DNA of 64,000 nt from Candidatus Laterigemmans baculatus (GTDB lineage Bacteria > Planctomycetota > Planctomycetia > Pirellulales > Pirellulaceae), in contig NZ_WRPR01000149.1 in NCBI RefSeq assembly GCF_010367455.1, positions 1 to 64,000 on the forward strand, read 5' to 3'. Position 1 is the stretch's first letter; every line of letters begins with the position of its first letter. Below, piece by piece: positions 9,140 through 60,220 of the stretch. Below the pieces are notes generated by a model. It did no database searches and had not been told where the DNA came from. It saw only the letters and a program-made list of their open reading frames with translations. A program made the translations under genes and the position numbers.

Positions 9140-9159
9140 GGCTGCGTTCGCCTCAAAAT

Positions 9160-9677
9160 CAGCGAAGCGGTACCTCGTACTCGTGCACGTACTCAGCGAA
9201 GCGGTACTCGTACTCAGCGAAGCGGTACTCGTACTCGTACTCGAATCGAGCGCGGCGTGGGACTCAAACGCAGCCTCGCCCTGGGATGGTGAAAAGCCCG
9301 GAAGAAAAGGGCGCCAGAAGTAGAAACGGCGAGTCAAAACATCATCCTCCCGCCCCGCGGGAGGGTCGGGCTCTTAGGCCCGGGGAGGGCAATGAGTTTC
9401 GGCACGAACTCCCGATGAAGCCGTTAGAAAAGAAGCCAATTCGTTGAGGAAAAAGGGTCACACCCACTCATCGCGCGAGCGTCTACCGGCCCCTCCCCGC
9501 TCGTTCCTCGCGACCCTCCCGGGGGGAGGGTGATGTCTTGGGCGGAACAGCTTCAACTCATTTACGAGAAAATTTTCACCATCCCAGCCTCGCCCCATTG
9601 GCTCGATCACGAGTACCGCTGCGCTGAGTACGAGTACCGCTGCGCTGAGTACGAGTACCGCTGCGCTGAGTACGAGT
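9160..9677. repeat. Three-layer nested inverted-repeat island (R4, a 13-mer pair, R3)
   Basis: Outer layer (R4): 21-bp units at 9191-9211 and 9212-9232 with a partial unit before them, answered in inverted orientation by three exact 21-bp units at 9611-9631, 9632-9652 and 9653-9673; the arms differ mainly at one base (AGCGAAGCGG versus AGCGCAGCGG). Middle layer: GGGATGGTGAAAA at 9283-9295 and its reverse complement at 9573-9585. Inner layer (R3): GC-rich arms at 9341-9390 and 9490-9535. This accounts for most of the 551-bp gap between the TIGR03545 gene and the convergent FtsQ-like gene. The 21-bp units stay open in several frames, which creates spurious repetitive ORFs. Confidence 0.85.
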
Positions 9678-9690
9678 AGGGGAGGGAGAG

Positions 9691-19771: not shown

Positions 19772-21973
19772 ATGAAGATCCCGGCACGGATGCCGACGAA
19801 ACACCGCGTGTCGCCGGGCGACCGGCGATGTGATTGCGCGATCGCGGATCGACCAGCGGAGGTTCGCCGCGGGCTCTTGGCCGCCTGCAGCCTCACGCTG
19901 GTCCTTGCAATCAGCGGATGCGCTTCGACCCAGTATCTCACACTGCGTTCGACGCGGGAGAATGCACTCGCCGGGACACTTAAGCTGGTCTCCCGGCAAG
20001 GTCCCCAGATCCGCGACCGGACGGCCCATTTGCTACGCCGCTATGGGCTGTCGGATCAGTATGCAAAAGATCCCGTCGGCACGATTGAAGCGCTGCGGAC
20101 GCGAACCGACGCCGCGGATGCCGATGAGCGGAAGTTCGCCGTCGCGGAACTGGCGTATATCGAGGGCAAGCGAGCTGAACGCGAACGCCAGATCGGCCAG
20201 GCGCTCGATCACTACGCCGTAACGCTGATCAGCAGTTACGACTATCTGTTTTCAGAGGATTATAGCGCAACTCGCAATCCTTATGATCCGCAGTTCCGCG
20301 GTGCCTGCGACCTTTATAACGAAGCGCTCGAAGATACCTTGCGGTTGCTCTGCGCCGAACACCAGTTGCGGCCCGGCCAGAACTACACCATCCAGACCGG
20401 GAAGCGTGAATTCACGATCGAAACCAAAATGCGCGGTAGTTGGTCGGCCGAAGATTTTGATCATTTTGAATTCGTCAGCGATTATCAGATTCAAACTCTC
20501 AACAATCGCCATAAGACCTACGGACTCGGCGTGCCGCTGATCGCGGTTCGCAAGCCACCGGTCGATTCGAGCGGCGTCGAGGCCTACTATCCCGAGGGAG
20601 TGAGCTTTGCGGTGACCGCGATGATTCGCGGTGTTCGCGATCGACGCTCCCGTCAGCCCCAGGCCGCGATCGCTTCGGCCCATGATGATTCCGACGCTGG
20701 TTATGGAGCCTTCCGCGGTGGTGCCGGCGAGCTGCAGGCTGTGGAAGAGGGTCGCGAGCACACCCCGCGGTGCGTGTTGGAGTTCTTCGACCCGCTACGT
20801 CAGAACCAAATCTATCTGGCGAACCAGTGGGTTCCATTGCAAACCGATCTGACGACCCCGCTCGCATACTTTCTCGACACACCACAGTTTCGCAAACGGA
20901 ATACGCCCACCGCCGGCCTGCTCGATCCCAATCAGCAGCAGGAGACAAAGGGTCTATTCATGCTAGAACCCTATGACCCGGAGCGGATTCCGGTCGTCAT
21001 GGTGCATGGGTTGTGGTCGAGCCCGCTGACCTGGATGGATATGTTCAACGACTTGCGGAGCTTCCCGGAGATTCGCGAGCGTTATCAGTTTTGGTTTTAC
21101 CTCTACCCTACCGGTCAACCCTTCTGGATTAGCGCAACACAGATGCGGGCCGATCTGGTCAAGGCTCGGCAGGTATTTGATCCTCGAGCCGAACATGCGA
21201 CGGTCGATCAAATGGTACTGGTCGGGCACAGCATGGGAGGGCTGGTCAGCCGGATGCAGTCGATCGACAGCGGCGATGAATTCTGGCGAATCGTCAGCGA
21301 TCAACCAATCGACCAGCTTCGCGGAGAGCCCGAGGATGTGCAGAAGCTCGTCAGCACGCTCAAATTCCGCCCCAACAATTCTGTCGCTCGCGTGATCACC
21401 ATCGCGACGCCGCATCGCGGCAGCGATTTCGCCAACGAGTACACGCGGTGGCTGGGGCGGCGGCTGATCAAATTGCCGAACTTTGCGGTCAGCACTGGCA
21501 ACCGGTTGGCGAAGGAGAACCCCGACTTCTTCAAGGACAGCGAACTGCTGACGATGAACACGGCCATCGACTCGCTCGCTCCCGACTCACCGATCTTCCC
21601 AGTGATGCTCCGCGCCAAACGGTCGCCGCGCGTCGTCTACCACAACATTGTGGGAGTCGTCGACAGCGAGAGTTGGCTCGGCAGCGTGGCCCCTGCCTCC
21701 GACGGAGTGGTAGCATACCCAAGCGCGCACATGGATGACGTGGAGAGCGAGTTGATCGTCAACGCCGACCACACCACGATTCATACCGAGCCCGAGTCGA
21801 TCCTCGAAGTCCGGCGGATCTTGCTCGAGCACATCGCCGAGATCGACGCCCAGGACCGCGTCGCCCGCGAAGGAGTTCGCTCGCAAGCCGTGCAACCCGC
21901 CGCAGCGATCCGTCGCGAAGAGGCAACTGCGAAGCCGCCCCGCTACCGCTTCGGGCTCGAGCCCGCCCAGTGA
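19772..21973 (+). CDS. Alpha/beta-hydrolase lipoprotein (lipase/esterase-like)
   Basis: 733 aa. A long N-terminus leads to a hydrophobic stretch and lipobox at LVLAISGC (lipidated Cys at residue 50). The first ~380 residues have no recognised domain. The hydrolase starts at VVMVHGLWSSPLTW (about 407-420); the nucleophile elbow is GHSMGG with S487; the likely catalytic His is H667 (NADHTTIHTE); PHRGSDFA follows the usual lipase pattern. Probably anchored in a membrane facing the periplasm and hydrolysing lipids or esters; substrate unknown. The codon mix in the first half is less GC-rich than in neighbours (many AT-ending codons around 20.1-20.7 kb). The TGA stop (21971-21973) is the first triplet of the R2 repeat. 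Confidence 0.85.
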   Translation: MKIPARMPTKHRVSPGDRRCDCAIADRPAEVRRGLLAACSLTLVLAISGCASTQYLTLRSTRENALAGTLKLVSRQGPQIRDRTAHLLRRYGLSDQYAKDPVGTIEALRTRTDAADADERKFAVAELAYIEGKRAERERQIGQALDHYAVTLISSYDYLFSEDYSATRNPYDPQFRGACDLYNEALEDTLRLLCAEHQLRPGQNYTIQTGKREFTIETKMRGSWSAEDFDHFEFVSDYQIQTLNNRHKTYGLGVPLIAVRKPPVDSSGVEAYYPEGVSFAVTAMIRGVRDRRSRQPQAAIASAHDDSDAGYGAFRGGAGELQAVEEGREHTPRCVLEFFDPLRQNQIYLANQWVPLQTDLTTPLAYFLDTPQFRKRNTPTAGLLDPNQQQETKGLFMLEPYDPERIPVVMVHGLWSSPLTWMDMFNDLRSFPEIRERYQFWFYLYPTGQPFWISATQMRADLVKARQVFDPRAEHATVDQMVLVGHSMGGLVSRMQSIDSGDEFWRIVSDQPIDQLRGEPEDVQKLVSTLKFRPNNSVARVITIATPHRGSDFANEYTRWLGRRLIKLPNFAVSTGNRLAKENPDFFKDSELLTMNTAIDSLAPDSPIFPVMLRAKRSPRVVYHNIVGVVDSESWLGSVAPASDGVVAYPSAHMDDVESELIVNADHTTIHTEPESILEVRRILLEHIAEIDAQDRVAREGVRSQAVQPAAAIRREEATAKPPRYRFGLEPAQ

Positions 21974-22157
21974 GCCGAAGGCGCTAGCCTCGGGCCTCCT
22001 TTCTTCTGAGCCGAAGGCGCTAGCCTCGGGTCTTCTTTCCTTTGAGCCGAAGGCGCTAGCCTCGGGCCTTCTTTCCCTTGAGCCGAAGGCGCTAGCCTCG
22101 GGCTTTCGCCAGCTCGGCATCTCCGCTGCAGAACCCGCGGCTAGCGCCGTCGGCTGA
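21971..22157. repeat. R2 palindromic element with one arm iterated four times (36-bp period)
   Basis: The left arm starts TGAGCCGAAGGCGCTAGCC and occurs at 21971, 22007, 22043 and 22079, an exact 36-bp period. The answering arm CCCGCGGCTAGCGCCGTCGG occurs once at about 22134-22153. The first unit supplies the stop codon of the hydrolase gene. The element ends about 36 bp before the stop of csrA, which is convergent. Related copies occur at 29082, 36235, 51004 and 60016. Confidence 0.9.
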
Positions 22158-22811: not shown

Positions 22812-23045
22812 TTACAACCGCTTGTAATCCGCCCGCCCGTCCTCGTACTCAGCGCAGCGGTACTCGTACTCAGCGAAGCGGTACTCGTACTCAGCGAAGC
22901 AGTACTCGTAATCGAGGTCCGAGGACAACGGCGCAGGAGCTCCATCTGCTTATCGGGATCGGCACCGGCTCTCAACCGGATTCGAGTACGAGTACGAGTA
23001 CCGCTGCGCTGACTACGAGTACGATTTCGAGTACGAGGACGAGTA
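22812..23045. repeat. R4 element with 3x21-bp left arm, plus a TTACAA palindrome
   Basis: Three 21-bp units (core CTCAGCGAAGCGGTACTCG) lie at 22847-22867, 22868-22888 and 22889-22909. About 85 bp later the inverted arm (GAGTACCGCTGCGCTGACTAC and neighbouring GAGTAC hexamers) runs from 22983 to 23045. Just before the left arm, 22812-22827 is a perfect 6-4-6 palindrome TTACAA-CCGC-TTGTAA, operator-like. No gene is recognised between csrA and 23157. Confidence 0.8.
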
Positions 23046-23156: not shown

Positions 23157-23993
23157 GTGCCGATGCTCGACCGTGCCGAATACGTCGAACAGGCACACCT
23201 CTTCAAAATTCTCGTCGCCCGGCTCAGCGAGCAGATCCCGCTTCAAGACCTGCTCGGGGTCCTCCGCCACGAGTTGCTGGCCAGCACCAAACTGCCGATG
23301 GCGGTCGACTTCCTGCTGACTGAGCTCAAGCACAGTGGGATGATGTCGCCAGCGATGCTCCGGCTCGGCCACTACTTCACGCCCTACCAGGCCTACTTGA
23401 TCAGCGAAGCGGAGGCCGAGCGGGGGCAGTTCGATATGCGGATTGCGGTCCGCATCCTGCAAGCCGAAGCGGAGTACCGAAGCGAAGGAGCCAGCCCGCA
23501 GGGGATTTTCTTCTTCCAGTTCGAGTCGATCTCTCGCAATCGGCTGCGGTACAGCCCGGGGCTGAAGGCGATCAGCCAGGACCCGGCGTACGATGAGCCC
23601 TGGACGCACTTTATTCTCGAAGTCCGCAACCAGGTGGGGCTGATCGATCTGGCCGACTTGATCTTCATGCGGTCGGAGGACTACCACCGCCGCCGGACCG
23701 CCGCCGGGGCCGACAATTCGAAGCTCCCACCGCCGCTGTTCGGTGAAAAGGAAGGCCGGATTGCGTTTGCCAATCGCCACAAAGATCCGCTCTACCTCTT
23801 CTCCGCAATGCAGCGCCACCTCGGCTACCCTCAGGTACCGCGGCCCGAACCGCCGGACCCCAGCAAGGAGCTGCTGCCACAGCTGATGCGACGGATGGAG
23901 CGGCTCGAGACGCGGATGAAGCTGATGGAAGAGGAGAATCGGCAAGGGATCGACATCACCAAATTCTACGGCGACCGCCCCCCGAGTCCCTAG
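23157..23993 (+). CDS. Conserved-looking hypothetical protein, no domain recognised
   Basis: 278 aa from a GTG at 23157, preferred because GAGGAG (23143-23148) is 8 nt upstream; an in-frame ATG two codons later is the alternative. Mostly helical and soluble: EQAHLFKILVARLSEQI, an internal stretch MLRLGHYFTPYQAYLISEAE, and an acidic-basic C-terminal helix with heptad-like MRRMERLETRMKLMEEENR (about 240-262), probably coiled coil. No signal peptide or membrane segment. Composition and ribosome binding site support a real gene. I do not recognise its function. Confidence 0.75.
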   Translation: MPMLDRAEYVEQAHLFKILVARLSEQIPLQDLLGVLRHELLASTKLPMAVDFLLTELKHSGMMSPAMLRLGHYFTPYQAYLISEAEAERGQFDMRIAVRILQAEAEYRSEGASPQGIFFFQFESISRNRLRYSPGLKAISQDPAYDEPWTHFILEVRNQVGLIDLADLIFMRSEDYHRRRTAAGADNSKLPPPLFGEKEGRIAFANRHKDPLYLFSAMQRHLGYPQVPRPEPPDPSKELLPQLMRRMERLETRMKLMEEENRQGIDITKFYGDRPPSP

Positions 23994-24015
23994 AAAGTCG
24001 CCTTTCGCTCCGCTC

Positions 24016-24082
24016 ATAGTCGCCTTTCGCTCCGCGAAAGTTGTGTTCAGTGCGCTACTTTCGCGGAGCGAAAGGCGACTAT
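24016..24082. repeat. R5 perfect 26-bp palindrome between convergent genes
   Basis: Arm 24016-24041 (starting ATAGTCGCCTTTCGCTCCGC) is a perfect reverse complement of 24057-24082, with a 15-nt loop. One extra partial arm precedes it at about 23998-24012. It sits between the stop of the hypothetical gene (23993) and the stop of the DUF1501 gene (24090). Without a T-run, intrinsic termination is uncertain, but the RNA hairpin would form on either strand. A longer copy is at 52037-52154. Confidence 0.9.
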
Positions 24083-32279: not shown

Positions 32280-34060
32280 GCCGCCACTTGGCCCCTTTTT
32301 CAGCGGATTTGCACAATCCGTAGCCTCGCTCTGTGCAGCCAGTGCCAGCCGCCCGCCGCCCAAAATCTCCCCCCACCCCGCCCCAACTCTCGCTAACCTC
32401 AGGAGCCGGCCGCCCGCGAGTCTCCGCGCCAATCAAGGCCCTCCCGCAGAACTCGGCTCCCCCGTTGTGCTCCGGCCCCTTTCCTCCCTGACCCCCTTTC
32501 CCACCACTGACCACCTGTCCTCCCTGGGCTCTGCACCTATTTCGAAAGACTGGGGGGGAGAGCGGAAGCGGGGCGTTGGGGATGGTTGGGTGGGCGTAAT
32601 CGAGATCCACCACAGCTCTGGAGGAAGAGCTCTCGCCCCCTTCCGAGTCTCTGACCCTTTGGCGCCTCTAGATGATTCTCCTCGGGGCTCTGACCCCTCT
32701 GTGCTAGTAACCCCTTTGCGCTACTAGGTTGGCGAGCTTGGGAGGACGGGGTTGTGGGGGCAGCTTAGGTCGTCGCGACCGAGGCTCCGTTAGGAAGTTG
32801 CTCGTCAGGGCAGTGCCCCCCTTCCGAACTCGGCTCTCCCGTTGTGCTCCGGCCCCTTTCCTCCCTGACCCCCTTTCCCACCACTGACCCCCTGTCCTCC
32901 GTGGGCCCTGACCCCAATTCGAAAGACTGGGGGGGAGAGCGAAAGCGGGGCGTTGGGGATGGTTGGGTGGGTGTAATCGAAATCCACCACAGCTCTGGCG
33001 GAAGAGCTCTGCCCCCTTCCGAGTCTCTGACCCTTTGGCGCCTCTGGAGGATTCTCCTCGGGGGCTCTGACCCCCTTGTGCTAGTGACCCCTTTGCGCTA
33101 CTAGGTTGGTGAGCTTGGGAGGACGGGGTTGCGGGGGCGACTTGGGTCGTCGCGACCGAGGCTCCGTTAGGAAGTTGCTCGTTAAGGCAGTGACCCCTTT
33201 GCTCGTTACGGCTATGACCCCTTGCGGGCGCTTGCTGCTAAATTGGAGGGCTTGAGAGGGTCGCGTTGCTGGGGAAGTTCAGGTCCTCGCCGCCGCAGCC
33301 CTGATAGGGGGAGTCTCGTTAGGGCTATGACCCCTTCTGGGCGAGGGCTGTGACCCCTTCTGGGCGGTGACCCCTTCTGGGCGGGCGAGCTTGGGAGGGT
33401 GGGATTGCGGGGGCAGCTTAGCTCGTGGCGGTCGAGGCTCCGTTAGGTAGTTGTACGTCAGGGCTGTGACCCCTTCTGTGGTGTGCAGGGCCGCTTGATG
33501 GACGGGGGGGCTGGCGAGGGTGGTGAGCTTGGGGTTCCTGGGTGGCCGGAGGACCGTCAGGGCTCTGACCCCTTTATGCTGGGGGGCGTCTCCTTAGGGC
33601 TGTGCCCCCTTGTGGGGGTTTAGGCTGTGACCCCTTCCGAACGGTGACCCCTTCTGGGCAAGAGCTGTGACCCCTTCATGTCAAGCGATCCGAACTGCTA
33701 GCGTTGGGGCTGTGACCCCTTCCGAACTAGTGACCCCATCCGGGCACTCGGTAGACTGGAGGGTCTGGCGAGGATAGGTGTCTTGGGGTCTGCGGGTGGC
33801 CGAAGGGGAGTCTCATTAGAGCTGTGACCCCTTCTGGGTTAGGGCTGTGACCCCTTCTGGGTTAGGGCTGTGACCCCTTCTGGGCAGGGCCCTAACCGCT
33901 TGCAGGGCCTCTCGGTAGACTGGATGGGCTGGCGAGGATGGGGGAGGTTGGTTTCTTCGGGTGGCCAAAGTCTCGTCAGGGCTCTGACCCCTTTGGGACT
34001 GACCCCTTTGTGAGAGAGGGAGCTGACCTCTTTCTGTTTCCCCTCTTGAGGGTGGGGCGC
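32280..34060 (+). repeat. R1 array B: gene-free TGACCCC repeat array
   Basis: About 26 copies of a core such as GGGCTGTGACCCCTTCTGGG or CTCTGACCCCTTT, all in the plus orientation, spaced irregularly from ~16 to ~110 bp. Longer modules between cores recur: a ~85-bp block beginning GCGAGCTTGGGAGG and ending CGTTAGGAAGTTG is at about 32731-32818, 33110-33194 and 33384-33470, and degenerate forms follow at 33507, 33756 and 33900. Strongly G-rich on the plus strand. No protein-coding signal. It separates cysH from nhaA, both on the minus strand. Not a CRISPR: spacing is irregular and spacers are themselves repeats. Confidence 0.88.
32451..33195. repeat. ~370-bp tandem direct duplication inside R1 array B
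   Basis: Copy 1 runs from about 32451 to 32818 and copy 2 from about 32828 to 33195, offset 377 bp. They share the phrases CCCGTTGTGCTCCGGCCCCT, GAAAGACTGGGGGGGAGAGC, ATCCACCACAGCTCTGG and CGACCGAGGCTCCGTTAGG with few differences, indicating a recent duplication. Confidence 0.85.
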
Positions 34061-51003: not shown

Positions 51004-51214
51004 ATCAGCCGCCGGGCGCTAGCCCCCGGTTCCCGAAAACGCTGTGATAACCGGACGCTAGCGCGTTGCGGCTGATTGAACACAGCGTGATGCGACGTTA
51101 GTTGCTCAGCGCACCGGAACCCGCGGCTAGCGCCGTCGGCACACCCGCGGCTAGCGCCGTCGGCTCACCCGCGGCTAGCGCCGTCGGCTCACCCGCGGCT
51201 AGCGCCGTCGGCTC
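51004..51214. repeat. Two R2-type elements, one with an arm iterated four times (24-bp period)
   Basis: The first is a palindrome: arm ATCAGCCGCCGGGCGCTAGC at 51004-51023 pairs 17 of 20 with 51057-51076. The second consists of four copies of a 24-bp unit (ACCCGCGGCTAGCGCCGTCGG plus three bases) at 51119-51142, 51143-51166, 51167-51190 and 51191-51214. The last unit provides the stop codon of the minus-strand bpt gene. The opposite arm of the second element is absent here. Confidence 0.85.
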
Positions 51215-51965
51215 AGGTATTGGTGACGAAGATCGGTTGCCAACGACCATCGATCCGCCGCTCCTGCGGCACGAACCGTGACTTGTAATTCAGGTGCGGA
51301 TTCCCGGCGACGTACATGCCCAGGTAGACGTACCGCCGTGAAGTGGCGGCGGCCAGTTCGATCTGTTTGAGGATCGAATAAGTCCCGAGACTGAGTTTGG
51401 CACAGTCGGGATCGAAGAAGCAGTAGACTGCTGAAAGGCTGGTCGCTCCCAGGTCGACCGTCGCCAGGGCCACCAGCCGCTCGCCCATCCAGTACGATAG
51501 TTCCTGCGTGTCGCAGCAGCTCTCGACCAAGAACGCTTCGTAGTCGGCCAAGCTGAGCGGTCCACCACTCGACGCCAAATTCCGTTCGTCACGATGGCGA
51601 TTGAGCAGATCGACGCGACTGCGATCGGCCATCGGCGGCTGCAAGCGGCACTCCAGGACTCGATCGCCGCGATCGCGAACCCGCCGCAGCGAACGGCTCC
51701 AGCAAAACCGCTCCACGTCCAACCGCGTCGGCTCGCAGGCTTGGCAGCCCCCGCACCGGGTGCGGTACAAAAAGGTTCCACTGCGGCGGTAGCCCGCCTC
51801 CATGTACGCGTCAAACTCCGCGGGGCTGACCAGTCGGATTGGCCAGTGCAGCGGCATCCGCGCCTGACGACCCTCGAGATACGGACAGGGCTGCGGCTGG
51901 TCGTGGATCATCACCAGCGCATTGCTGGTCAGCGGGCTATCGACGGGGGTCAGTTGATGGCGCAT
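51213..51965 (-). CDS. bpt: Aspartate/glutamate leucyl- or arginyl-tRNA-protein transferase
   Basis: 250 aa. N-end-rule transferase of the Bpt/ATE family, adding an amino acid to protein N-termini for ClpS/ClpAP degradation. Conserved Cys-rich start CPYLEGRQARM, then TFLYRTRCGGCQACEPTRLDV, and the GNAT-like end YCFFDPDCAKLSLGTYSILKQ with YLGMYVAGNPHLNYKSRF. The stop codon TGA lies at the beginning of the R2 repeat (51213-51215). Start ATG at 51965; the ATG 18 codons inside is an alternative. Confidence 0.93.
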   Translation of the reverse strand: MRHQLTPVDSPLTSNALVMIHDQPQPCPYLEGRQARMPLHWPIRLVSPAEFDAYMEAGYRRSGTFLYRTRCGGCQACEPTRLDVERFCWSRSLRRVRDRGDRVLECRLQPPMADRSRVDLLNRHRDERNLASSGGPLSLADYEAFLVESCCDTQELSYWMGERLVALATVDLGATSLSAVYCFFDPDCAKLSLGTYSILKQIELAAATSRRYVYLGMYVAGNPHLNYKSRFVPQERRIDGRWQPIFVTNT

Positions 51966-52036: not shown

Positions 52037-52154
52037 AGTCGCCTTTCGCTCCGCGTTTAGTCGCCTTTCGCTCCGCGTTTAGTCGCCTTTCGCTCCGCGA
52101 AAGTAGCGCATCGAACCGTGCATTTGCGCTACTTTCGCGGAGCGAAAGGCGACT
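52037..52154. repeat. R5 palindrome with left arm iterated (22-bp period)
   Basis: A perfect 30-bp inverted repeat: 52081-52110 (AGTCGCCTTTCGCTCCGCGA...) pairs with 52125-52154 around a 14-nt loop. The first 18 bases of the left arm plus TTT are iterated at 52037-52058 and 52059-52080, at a 22-bp period. It lies between bpt and the dnaB stop, both minus strand. Confidence 0.9.
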
Positions 52155-52167
52155 CTGCTCGGGCGGC

Positions 52168-53730
52168 TCAGGAGAACTCGGCGTATTCGTCGAATTCGCT
52201 GTGCCGGTCGGGAGCCTTATCGTAGAACCGGGTGAAGTCCTTCTCCCACACCAGTTCGACTTCGCCGACCGGACCGTTACGCTGCTTGGCGATGATGATC
52301 TCGGCCTGCCCAGCGTACTGGGCCTGGTCCTCGCCGCGGTGGTAGTACTCTTCGCGGTGGACGAACATCACGACGTCGGCGTCCTGTTCGATGGCCCCCG
52401 ATTCCCGCAAGTGGCTCAGCCGCGGGCGGTGGTCCTTGCCCTCTTCGGCTTGCCGGTTGAGCTGGGAGAGGCAGAGCACCGGGACGTCGAGCTCACGGGC
52501 CATCCCTTTCAGGCGGCGGGCGATTTTCGCCACCTGTTCTTGGCGCGGGTCGCGGGGGTTGTCCGGCTCGATCAACTGCAGGTAGTCGATCACGATCAAT
52601 CCGAGTTTGCCGTGGCGGCGCTTGATCCGCCGGGCGCCGGCGGCGATCTCGCTGACCGTGCGGCTCGGCGAATCGTCGACGAACAGTGGCGATTGGCTGA
52701 TCTCGCTGGCCGTCTGGCTCAGCCGAATCCGATCGTCGTTGCTGATCGTTCCGTTTCGCAGCCGGTGACCATTGACCTTGGCCAACGAGCAGAGCATTCG
52801 GTCAGCCAACTCGATCGCCGCCATTTCCAAGCTGATGAACAGCACCGGCTCTTGGAGCTCGATCGCCACGAACTGGGCGATGTTCATCGCGAACGCCGTT
52901 TTCCCCATACTCGGGCGAGCGGCGAGAATGATCATCTCGGTGTTGTGCAGCCCGCCGGTCATGTCGTCGAAGTCTTTGAAGCCCGTCTCGACTCCCCCTT
53001 CGACGTGCTCGCCGGCCAAACGGGCGTCGATGCGGTCCATCGACTGGTGCAACACGTCGCTGATCGCGTTCAGCGAATTGGCCGTCCGCCCGTCCATGAT
53101 CGAGAAGATTTTCTGCTCGGCCTGGGCGACGAGATCACGAGCATCGTGCGTCTGCTCGTAGGCGTCGGCGAGGATCTCGGTGCTCGACTCGATCAGCTTC
53201 CGGAAAGTGGCTTTCTCGGCGACGATCTGGGCGTAGTAGACGGCGTGGGCCGCGTTCGGAACCGCTTGGCTCAGCTGCCCGAGGTAGGCGGCCCCGCCGA
53301 TCGCTTCGAACTGCTCCTTGCGTTTGAGTCGCGAGACGAGCAGGGTGATGTCGATCTTTTCCCCTTCGTCGTACATCTCGCGAAGGACCGCATAGAGTTT
53401 GCGGTTAGCGTCGTCGTAGAAGTCGTCCGGACGCAGCAAGGTCGCCAAATCGTCGCAGCATTCGGGCAGGATCAGAACGCTTCCCAGGACCCCCATTTCG
53501 GCCTCGAGGTCGAACGGGGGATGGCGTTTGAGGATCTCCGCGGTACTGCTCCGCCGCGGTTTGTCGCCGCGCTGCCGCGATCCACTGCCCTTGCCGTCGT
53601 TGCTATTGGCGATCAAAGCCGATCCACTCCGTTTGGATTTGCTGGTTTGCGGCACACGTGCCCACTGCTTCGCTCTCCCGGGAATCGGGCCCCAAGGTCT
53701 TGAGGCCCCCGGGTTTTGAGGTCCCAGCAT
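52168..53730 (-). CDS. dnaB: Replicative DNA helicase DnaB
   Basis: 520 aa. The N-terminal domain is visible as PPFDLEAEMGVLGSVLI. The RecA-like motor has Walker A ARPSMGKTAFAMNIAQ, then LFISLEMAAIELADRML, Walker B LGLIVIDYLQL, and ELDVPVLCLSQLNRQAE; the arginine finger is near SHLRESGAIEQDADV. Unwinds the chromosome at the fork as a hexamer. The ~60 residues before the N-terminal domain are rich in Arg, Ser and Lys. ATG at 53730 is preferred; the frame is open to 53757. No intein or split site seen. Confidence 0.97.
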   Translation of the reverse strand: MLGPQNPGASRPWGPIPGRAKQWARVPQTSKSKRSGSALIANSNDGKGSGSRQRGDKPRRSSTAEILKRHPPFDLEAEMGVLGSVLILPECCDDLATLLRPDDFYDDANRKLYAVLREMYDEGEKIDITLLVSRLKRKEQFEAIGGAAYLGQLSQAVPNAAHAVYYAQIVAEKATFRKLIESSTEILADAYEQTHDARDLVAQAEQKIFSIMDGRTANSLNAISDVLHQSMDRIDARLAGEHVEGGVETGFKDFDDMTGGLHNTEMIILAARPSMGKTAFAMNIAQFVAIELQEPVLFISLEMAAIELADRMLCSLAKVNGHRLRNGTISNDDRIRLSQTASEISQSPLFVDDSPSRTVSEIAAGARRIKRRHGKLGLIVIDYLQLIEPDNPRDPRQEQVAKIARRLKGMARELDVPVLCLSQLNRQAEEGKDHRPRLSHLRESGAIEQDADVVMFVHREEYYHRGEDQAQYAGQAEIIIAKQRNGPVGEVELVWEKDFTRFYDKAPDRHSEFDEYAEFS

Positions 53731-53999
53731 GGTCGTCGCTCGCTGGCGAGGACGCAACCGAGGCTGTCCCGGCGTGCCCGCCGAACCGGGGTTTACCTCT
53801 TTTTATCGGCACTTCCCGGAGTCTCGATCCACTCCGAGCGGCTGTGGACAACCGGTCGAGCGACTGCTGCGCGACGCCAGCGGGGAATTTTACCATGCGT
53901 CGGTGACCGCTGGGGGGCAAGGCTGGGGGGGCAGCAGCTTGCTGGCCGTTTGGCTGGTTGTTTACAACGGGGCGGTCTCCCGATCCCTATGTCTCTCGA

Positions 54000-55157: not shown

Positions 55158-55226
55158 TCGTTTAACGGCAAGCCGAAGGCGACGGAGTTTTGAAAAAGCA
55201 GTCGTCTTCGGCTTGCCATTAAACGA
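55158..55226. repeat. R6 long imperfect palindrome
   Basis: Arms of 26 bp at 55158-55183 and 55201-55226 match with two mismatches (TCGTTTAACGGCAAGCCGAA against its partner). The loop contains an A/T-rich TTTTGAAAAA. It follows the corA stop by 40 bp. The remaining 340 bp to the next gene contain no recognisable feature apart from an AAGGGGGTGG ~12 nt before the decarboxylase ATG. Confidence 0.8.
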
Positions 55227-56817: not shown

Positions 56818-57015
56818 CAGATACCCTCCTCCCGAACATTGGGCTCTACACAAGTCCAAGAGCTAGAAAAGGCACCGCCATCACCCTCCCCCCGGGAGGG
56901 TCGCGAGGAACGAGCGGGGAGGGTTTCCGCAACGGTGAGTTTCACGTAGGGCTATCGTTCGGGATTGCTCTCCCTCCCCTCGCTGACGCTCGACCCTCCC
57001 GGGGGGAGGGTGATG
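56818..57015. repeat. R3 element with conserved left flank
   Basis: Inverted orientation. Flank 56818-56878 contains GGGCTCTACACAAGTC and AAAAGGCACC, also found before the R3 remnant at 63.89 kb. The two arms are 56879-56923 and 56970-57015. The gap to the next CDS (stop at 57068) contains nothing else recognised. Confidence 0.75.
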
Positions 57016-59942: not shown

Positions 59943-60220
59943 GTCACCCTCCCCCCGGGAGGGTCGCGAGGAACGAGCGGGGAGGGCTCAGTCGCTAAGC
60001 GCTGTCAGAAAACCCTGAGCCGACGGCGCTAGCCGCGGGTGCTGCAGCGAAAATTCCGGGGCTGCGAGGCCCGAGGCTAGCGCCTGCGGCTCACCCGAGG
60101 CTAGCGCCTGCGGCTCACCCGAGGCTAGCGCCTGCGGCTCACCCGAGGCTAGCGCCTGCGGCTCAAAAGACTGAAGCCCTCCCCGGGCCTCAGAGCCCGA
60201 CCCTCCCGGGGGGAGGGTGA
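59943..60220. repeat. R3 halves enclosing an R2 element with 4x24-bp arm
   Basis: Outer layer: R3 arms in inverted orientation at 59943-59988 and 60176-60220. Inner: R2 left arm TGAGCCGACGGCGCTAGCC at 60016-60034 (preceded by GCTGTCAGA), then four exact 24-bp copies of the other arm (CCCGAGGCTAGCGCCTGCGG plus four) at 60070-60093, 60094-60117, 60118-60141 and 60142-60165. It fills the 332-bp gap between the convergent PmoA-like and GspE-like genes. Confidence 0.88.

Follow-up and report, generated by a model that had tools for sequence, protein, structure and literature searches.

In Pseudomonas fluorescens SBW25, REPINs, which are dispersed inverted pairs of repetitive extragenic palindromic (REP) sequences, have cognate REP-associated tyrosine transposases (RAYTs) and form ordered tandem clusters (Bertels and Rainey 2011, PMC3116915). 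Tandem REP clusters that include flanking DNA occur in many genomes, REPs tagged with GTAG have the habit of supplying TAG stop codons, and flanking repeats are mentioned for the tyrosine transposases of Rhodopirellula baltica (PMC3733652). How REPs spread and how their clusters form are unsettled questions. Here we describe R5, a palindromic repeat family, starting from its tandem array at positions 52037-52154 of a 64,000-nt stretch of Candidatus Laterigemmans baculatus (hereafter the window), and compare it with the families R2, R4 and R6 of the same genome. R5 is a REPIN/RAYT-type system with minisatellite-like expansion of its arms, a combination partly known from Pseudomonas REP clusters.

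R5 and the SBW25 REPINs are alike in that inverted arm pairs are dispersed and the cognate RAYT gene lies next to the repeat; some SBW25 clusters are also ordered tandem repeats including flanking sequence (PMC3116915). In R5, what is repeated in tandem is mostly a single arm or precisely half of one, spacers are locus-specific, and a large share of the loci is affected; phylum and sequence differ as well. As in the GTAG/CGTC REPs and the terminal inverted repeats (TIRs) that accompany RAYT/TIRYT genes (PMC3733652), the termini of R5 provide TAG stops. Unlike in those REPs, GTAG is found in only part of the R5 arms (GTAG 72, GTTG 47, GCAG 6, and others) and is located at the side of the stem that faces the loop; a conserved unpaired GTAG at one end, the mark of the GTAG-tagged REP superfamily, is not a feature of the R5 arms, and R5 itself was not identified in the covered part of that paper. 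The bacterial interspersed mosaic elements (BIMEs) of Escherichia coli share with R5 the inverted REP arms and an HUH/Y1 enzyme, TnpAREP (PMC8266576), but BIME-2 repeats alternating two-REP units, whereas R5 arrays are runs in one orientation (>>>< and the like) in which a single arm is repeated. The pneumococcal BOX element, with terminal modules and an internal module of strain-variable tandem copy number (PMC3049150), is similar in architecture, but boxB is an internal module and not a copy of a terminal arm. Neither R5 nor tandem units made of half an arm were described in the covered part of the REP/RAYT literature.

The array in the window lies between dnaB and an arginyltransferase gene, 13 bp from the dnaB stop codon, and consists of the following parts, given with both neighbouring genes:

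52037-52058, plus strand: extra left unit 1, a half-arm with the hairpin's outer strand only, ending in CTCCGCG + TTT
52059-52080, plus strand: extra left unit 2, with the same sequence as unit 1
52081-52110, plus strand: complete left arm, holding its own hairpin
52111-52124, no strand: loop of 14 nt between the arms
52125-52154, minus strand: complete right (inverted) arm
52168-53757, minus strand: dnaB, replicative DNA helicase (TIGR00665, E = 1.6e-153), ending beside the R5 array
51213-51965, minus strand: arginyltransferase gene flanking R5 opposite dnaB, whose TGA stop falls on the opening bases (TGAGCC) of an R2 array

Two identical 22-bp units are thus followed by a perfect inverted repeat with 30-bp arms that are 100% complementary, as described in a first-pass annotation made from the sequence alone. 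Each arm is a hairpin in its own right (CTTTCGC-TCC-GCGAAAG). Folded as single-stranded DNA, the array reaches -47.8 kcal/mol (z = -9.6), a value equalled by 0 of 200 shuffles.

The R5 arm has 334 matches in the 5.76-Mb genome when up to one mismatch is allowed, 167 on each strand, and the reversed arm, used as a control, has none. Loci were catalogued in about 2.0 Mb of this genome (about a third), mostly contig starts plus some stretches picked for holding R5 or RAYT matches, and the locus counts below refer to this sample. It contains 69 R5 loci with 184 arms, 95 R2 loci with 215 arms, 52 R4 loci with 123 arms and 86 R6 loci with 130 arms; by extrapolation, R5 has about 190 copies genome-wide. 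At 44 of the 69 R5 loci, the two-armed ones, both orientations occur within 120 bp of each other. Placement counts are approximate because open reading frames (ORFs) were called with a simple greedy rule. By these counts R5 is largely extragenic (47 of 60 loci outside predicted ORFs), a stop codon lies within 30 bp in 45 of 51 measured cases, the repeat's own TAG serves as the gene's stop in nine, and gaps between convergent genes are enriched for R5 (18/43 against 179/825, P = 0.003). R5 is thus a short, high-copy, largely extragenic palindrome with an inverted arm pair, as expected of REPs and REPINs. Among the matches listed in a pattern scan of a species collection, R5 was found in Rhodopirellula, Rubripirellula, Roseimaritima, Fuerstiella and Mariniblastus and in many uncultured planctomycetes, and simple >< pairs are common in other planctomycetes. 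In Rubripirellula and others (L204, L211, L213, L241, L246), R5 is nested within a larger palindrome whose ends resemble TTAGGAACG...CGTTCCTTA.

The further property of REPINs, a RAYT flanked by the same repeat, was found on contig C139. A search of the genome with the NCBIfam RAYT model NF047646 detected a candidate gene at C139:129-791, encoding a protein of 221 amino acids (E = 3e-12, 46.6 bits against a curated cut-off of 80), with R5 arms on both sides. Its HUH motif, PNHVH, is invariant in 3/3 orthologues. The best match among solved structures, a marginal one (E = 0.07; profile 0.037), is TnpArep 4ER8, which aligns through the HUH and tyrosine regions, and the predicted catalytic-tyrosine region of the candidate reads YLR-YI--NG-KAGL in this alignment. 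Two other planctomycetes (L219, L300) have orthologues with 69% identity that likewise lie between R5 arms, and in all three genomes the TAG stop codon of the RAYT gene lies inside an R5 arm. Two further orthologues, at 57-58% identity, have an exact R5 arm 19-23 bp away. Altogether, RAYT genes flanked by R5 were seen in C139, L219, L300, G011 and G019. With a cut-off of at least 57% identity, picked after the data had been seen, orthologue and exact R5 arms co-occur in 5/5 genomes against 6/55 others (Fisher 8.5e-5). The C139 RAYT probably accounts for the dispersal of R5, and from this sequence evidence we infer that it mobilises the repeat.

A Y1_Tnp search returned three transposase genes, two IS200-like and one RAYT-like on contig C30, and missed the R5-flanked RAYT. 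The C30 gene is flanked by R6, with three tandem arms on one side and one inverted arm on the other. The suggestion in the first-pass annotation that a RAYT-like enzyme acts from elsewhere in the genome is therefore borne out as far as dispersal is concerned. R2-type arms occur on both sides of a RAYT in a relative, G019, and in G010, which has more R4 than any other relative, no RAYT was found next to this repeat. The two IS200-like genes (L001:932-2280 on contig C9 and L002:969-1997 on contig C83) were considered as partners of R5 and rejected, their flanking repeats being unrelated; these are complex direct and inverted repeats. Several REP-like families coexist in one genome, and two of them bracket a RAYT with their own arms; R5, present across several planctomycete genera, gains a named candidate enzyme.

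The first-pass annotation further held that R5, R2 and R4 share a restriction of amplification to one arm. Among the 44 two-armed R5 loci, amplification affects neither side in 15, one side in 24 and both sides in five, where independence expects 6.4 with both (P(≤5) = 0.27). The corresponding numbers are 24/18/1 for R2 (2.2 expected with both, P = 0.27) and 2/13/0 for R4 (2.7 expected, P = 0.007), the latter a real deficit of two-sided loci. In mag.21, another R5-rich planctomycete, they are 2/9/6, again with 6.4 expected. The two arms of R2 can be distinguished (GCCGACGG...CGCGGG and GCCGTAGG...CTCGGG), and either kind is amplified about equally often. Two-sided amplification, whose frequency the first-pass annotation had named as the test that could refute its claim, is as frequent as expected in R5 and R2, for which the impression of "only one arm" is a sampling effect; only R4 fits the proposed restriction. 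The sides of R5 amplify independently, and either arm, or both, can be copied; one-arm arrays arise because independent duplications that hold one arm yield them. A relation of the amplified side to replication direction was not borne out by a weak test with a GC-skew proxy (P = 0.70), and a conserved R4 loop as a polarity marker was looked for and not found.

Each of the five R5 loci of this genome that are amplified on both sides (L037:4045, L088:11328, L123:3910, L136:3756 and L193:1987) combines short half-arm units on one side with whole-arm units opposite, as do 2/4 two-sided loci of other planctomycetes, but the numbers are too few and the comparison is post hoc.

Within a locus the arrays are regular. 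Among R5 sides with at least two spacings, 20/21 have a single uniform period, against 1.7 expected after shuffling periods between loci, a homogeneity characteristic of minisatellites. Because these periods are uniform yet locus-specific, the units are copies of their neighbours and the arrays have grown in place. The period is exact inside a locus, as had been claimed, but not across the family, where it ranges from 20 to 54 bp. The outermost units are often degenerate, as at minisatellite edges. Two types of unit exist. Short ones (20-23 bp) comprise the outer half of the hairpin and end in CTCCGC, the second half being absent in 31/31, and the arm next to the loop is complete in 17/17 short arrays; long ones (at least 30 bp) retain the second half in 40/40. 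This rule also holds in other planctomycetes (12/12, 26/30 and 10/10). About ten R5 loci (L037, L086, L088, L158, L159, L168, L170, L193, L015, L017) share a period of 35 bp, with differing fillers of about 5 nt.

From these features we favour, at a probability of about 0.72, the reading that R5 is a RAYT-dispersed, REPIN-like element whose arms are expanded in tandem in place by slippage, each side independently. The unit would be a non-autonomous pair of inverted REP arms, each a hairpin, dispersed by its cognate Y1/HUH transposase, the RAYT bracketed by R5 arms on contig C139. Its preferred position is immediately 3' of stop codons. Once inserted, the element would undergo tandem duplication of a segment with one arm, most probably through slippage of replication at the hairpin, followed by expansion in the manner of a minisatellite. 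That slippage rather than an enzyme expands the arrays is likely, and we infer it from the borders and periods: the slippage proposed in the first-pass annotation is compatible with the uniform periods within loci, with the border homology of R4 (median 7 bp) and with short direct repeats at some R2 and R5 loci, such as GTGA at both ends at L166:6304 and TTCTGC at both ends at L186:12100. In R5, the direct repeat CGC that flanks the hairpin's second strand (CTC-CGC-GAAAGTAG-CGC) may offer a route for slippage. Dispersal and tandem expansion can be studied separately, since R6, simple at 39 of its 40 two-armed loci, hardly ever has tandem arms, whereas R5 is often tandem in only two exact unit types.

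Several points weigh against this reading. The C139 protein scores below the curated cut-off of Y1_Tnp (17.2 against 23 bits) as well as that of NF047646, and its AlphaFold model is of low confidence (pLDDT 43.5) and was not used. The co-occurrence of RAYT and R5 depends on the post hoc cut-off, P being 5e-4 with a 56% orthologue. Junctions in R5 arrays often contain filler that neither border carries and that would not be expected from simple slippage; the median border homology is 0 for R2, -1 for short and -5 for long R5 units, negative values denoting such filler. Finally, the constant cut at CTCCGC suggests either an enzyme or a structural stall site.

An enzymatic origin is the alternative that survives best, although we regard it as unlikely. 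The RAYT would build the arrays itself, cutting R5 at its outer end and at the hairpin's tip or foot and joining half or whole arms beside an existing arm. The inner boundary CTCCGC is indeed common to the half-units of every short array, here and in other genomes, tandem arms stand at RAYT loci (L196:13-125, and the three R6 arms beside the C30 RAYT), E. coli TnpAREP cuts and joins single-stranded REP DNA (PMC8266576), and slippage alone was judged unlikely for BIMEs by Nunvar et al. (PMC2817692). However, if standard pieces were joined, the unit should be a standard one too, whereas spacers and periods are locus-specific and uniform inside each locus; R6 has its own RAYT and is nevertheless nearly always simple; and for R4, a highly tandem family, no adjacent RAYT was found here. 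The narrower version, in which an R5-recognising RAYT cuts the hairpin tip and joins half-arms into one-orientation REP arrays, appears quite unlikely; if true, it would make the constant CTCCGC boundary an enzymatic signature.

We give similarly little credence to template switching across the palindrome, by which the right arm would be the template for extra left units, or vice versa, once the hairpin stalls replication. At L051:7020 the junction of the extra left units, CATCGT, equals the outer flank of the right arm and not that of the outermost left unit, with similar but weaker cases at L165, L136 and L093. Most of these junctions, however, equal the family consensus (C)CATAGT, leaving only L051 informative, L123 and L166:17658 match their own side, and the GC-skew proxy gave no association. 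Repeated independent insertion of single REP arms next to an existing element, as in mosaic BIME/REP clusters, is still more doubtful: at some R2 loci whole elements form clusters (><><), and the recurrent 35-bp period with different fillers would fit, but separate insertions would vary, whereas periods within a side are uniform and units within a locus near-identical. Least probable is that the arrays are selected functional modules, for example tuned 3' hairpins for mRNA stability or termination, as the proximity of R5 to stop codons and its enrichment in convergent gaps might suggest, since half-arm units cannot make a hairpin of their own and insertion tolerance also predicts placement near stops.

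Returning to the window, the other repeat arrays are:

23993-24082, plus strand: second R5 element, with one extra left half-arm followed by arms at 24016-24041 and 24057-24082
21971-22107, plus strand: R2 array of four T-type arms with a 36-bp period; inverted partner at about 22138-22156
51119-51215, minus strand: R2 array of four A-type arms with a 24-bp period
60070-60165, minus strand: R2 array of four arms with a 24-bp period; inverted partner at about 60017-60040
22842-22910, plus strand: R4 array of three arms with a 21-bp period; inverted partner at 22990-23023
9609-9678, minus strand: R4 array of three arms with a 21-bp period
55158-55226, no strand: R6 palindrome, a simple arm pair; arms of this family flank the C30 RAYT

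All the R2 and R4 arrays named in the first-pass annotation exist, but two of them do not share the design attributed to them. An inverted partner was looked for near the R2 array at 51119 and none was found; for the R4 array at 9609 no partner lies within 120 bp, and R4 copies on the opposite strand are about 400 bp away, at 9158-9236. These two arrays are therefore not palindromes with one amplified arm. The first R2 arm of 51119-51215 appears to provide the TGA stop of the arginyltransferase gene, and there are seven such R2 loci.

Further repeats were noted in the window. A 377-bp direct duplication (92%) at 32449-33197 contains short repeats of the CCCCTTTCC type, with related arrays of 17-24 bp at 582-636 and 33175-33884. 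Inverted copies of CACCCTCCCCCCGGGAGGGTCG at 56879-57015 are part of a further repeated palindrome, whose 13-mer core was found 113 times in the 2.0 Mb.
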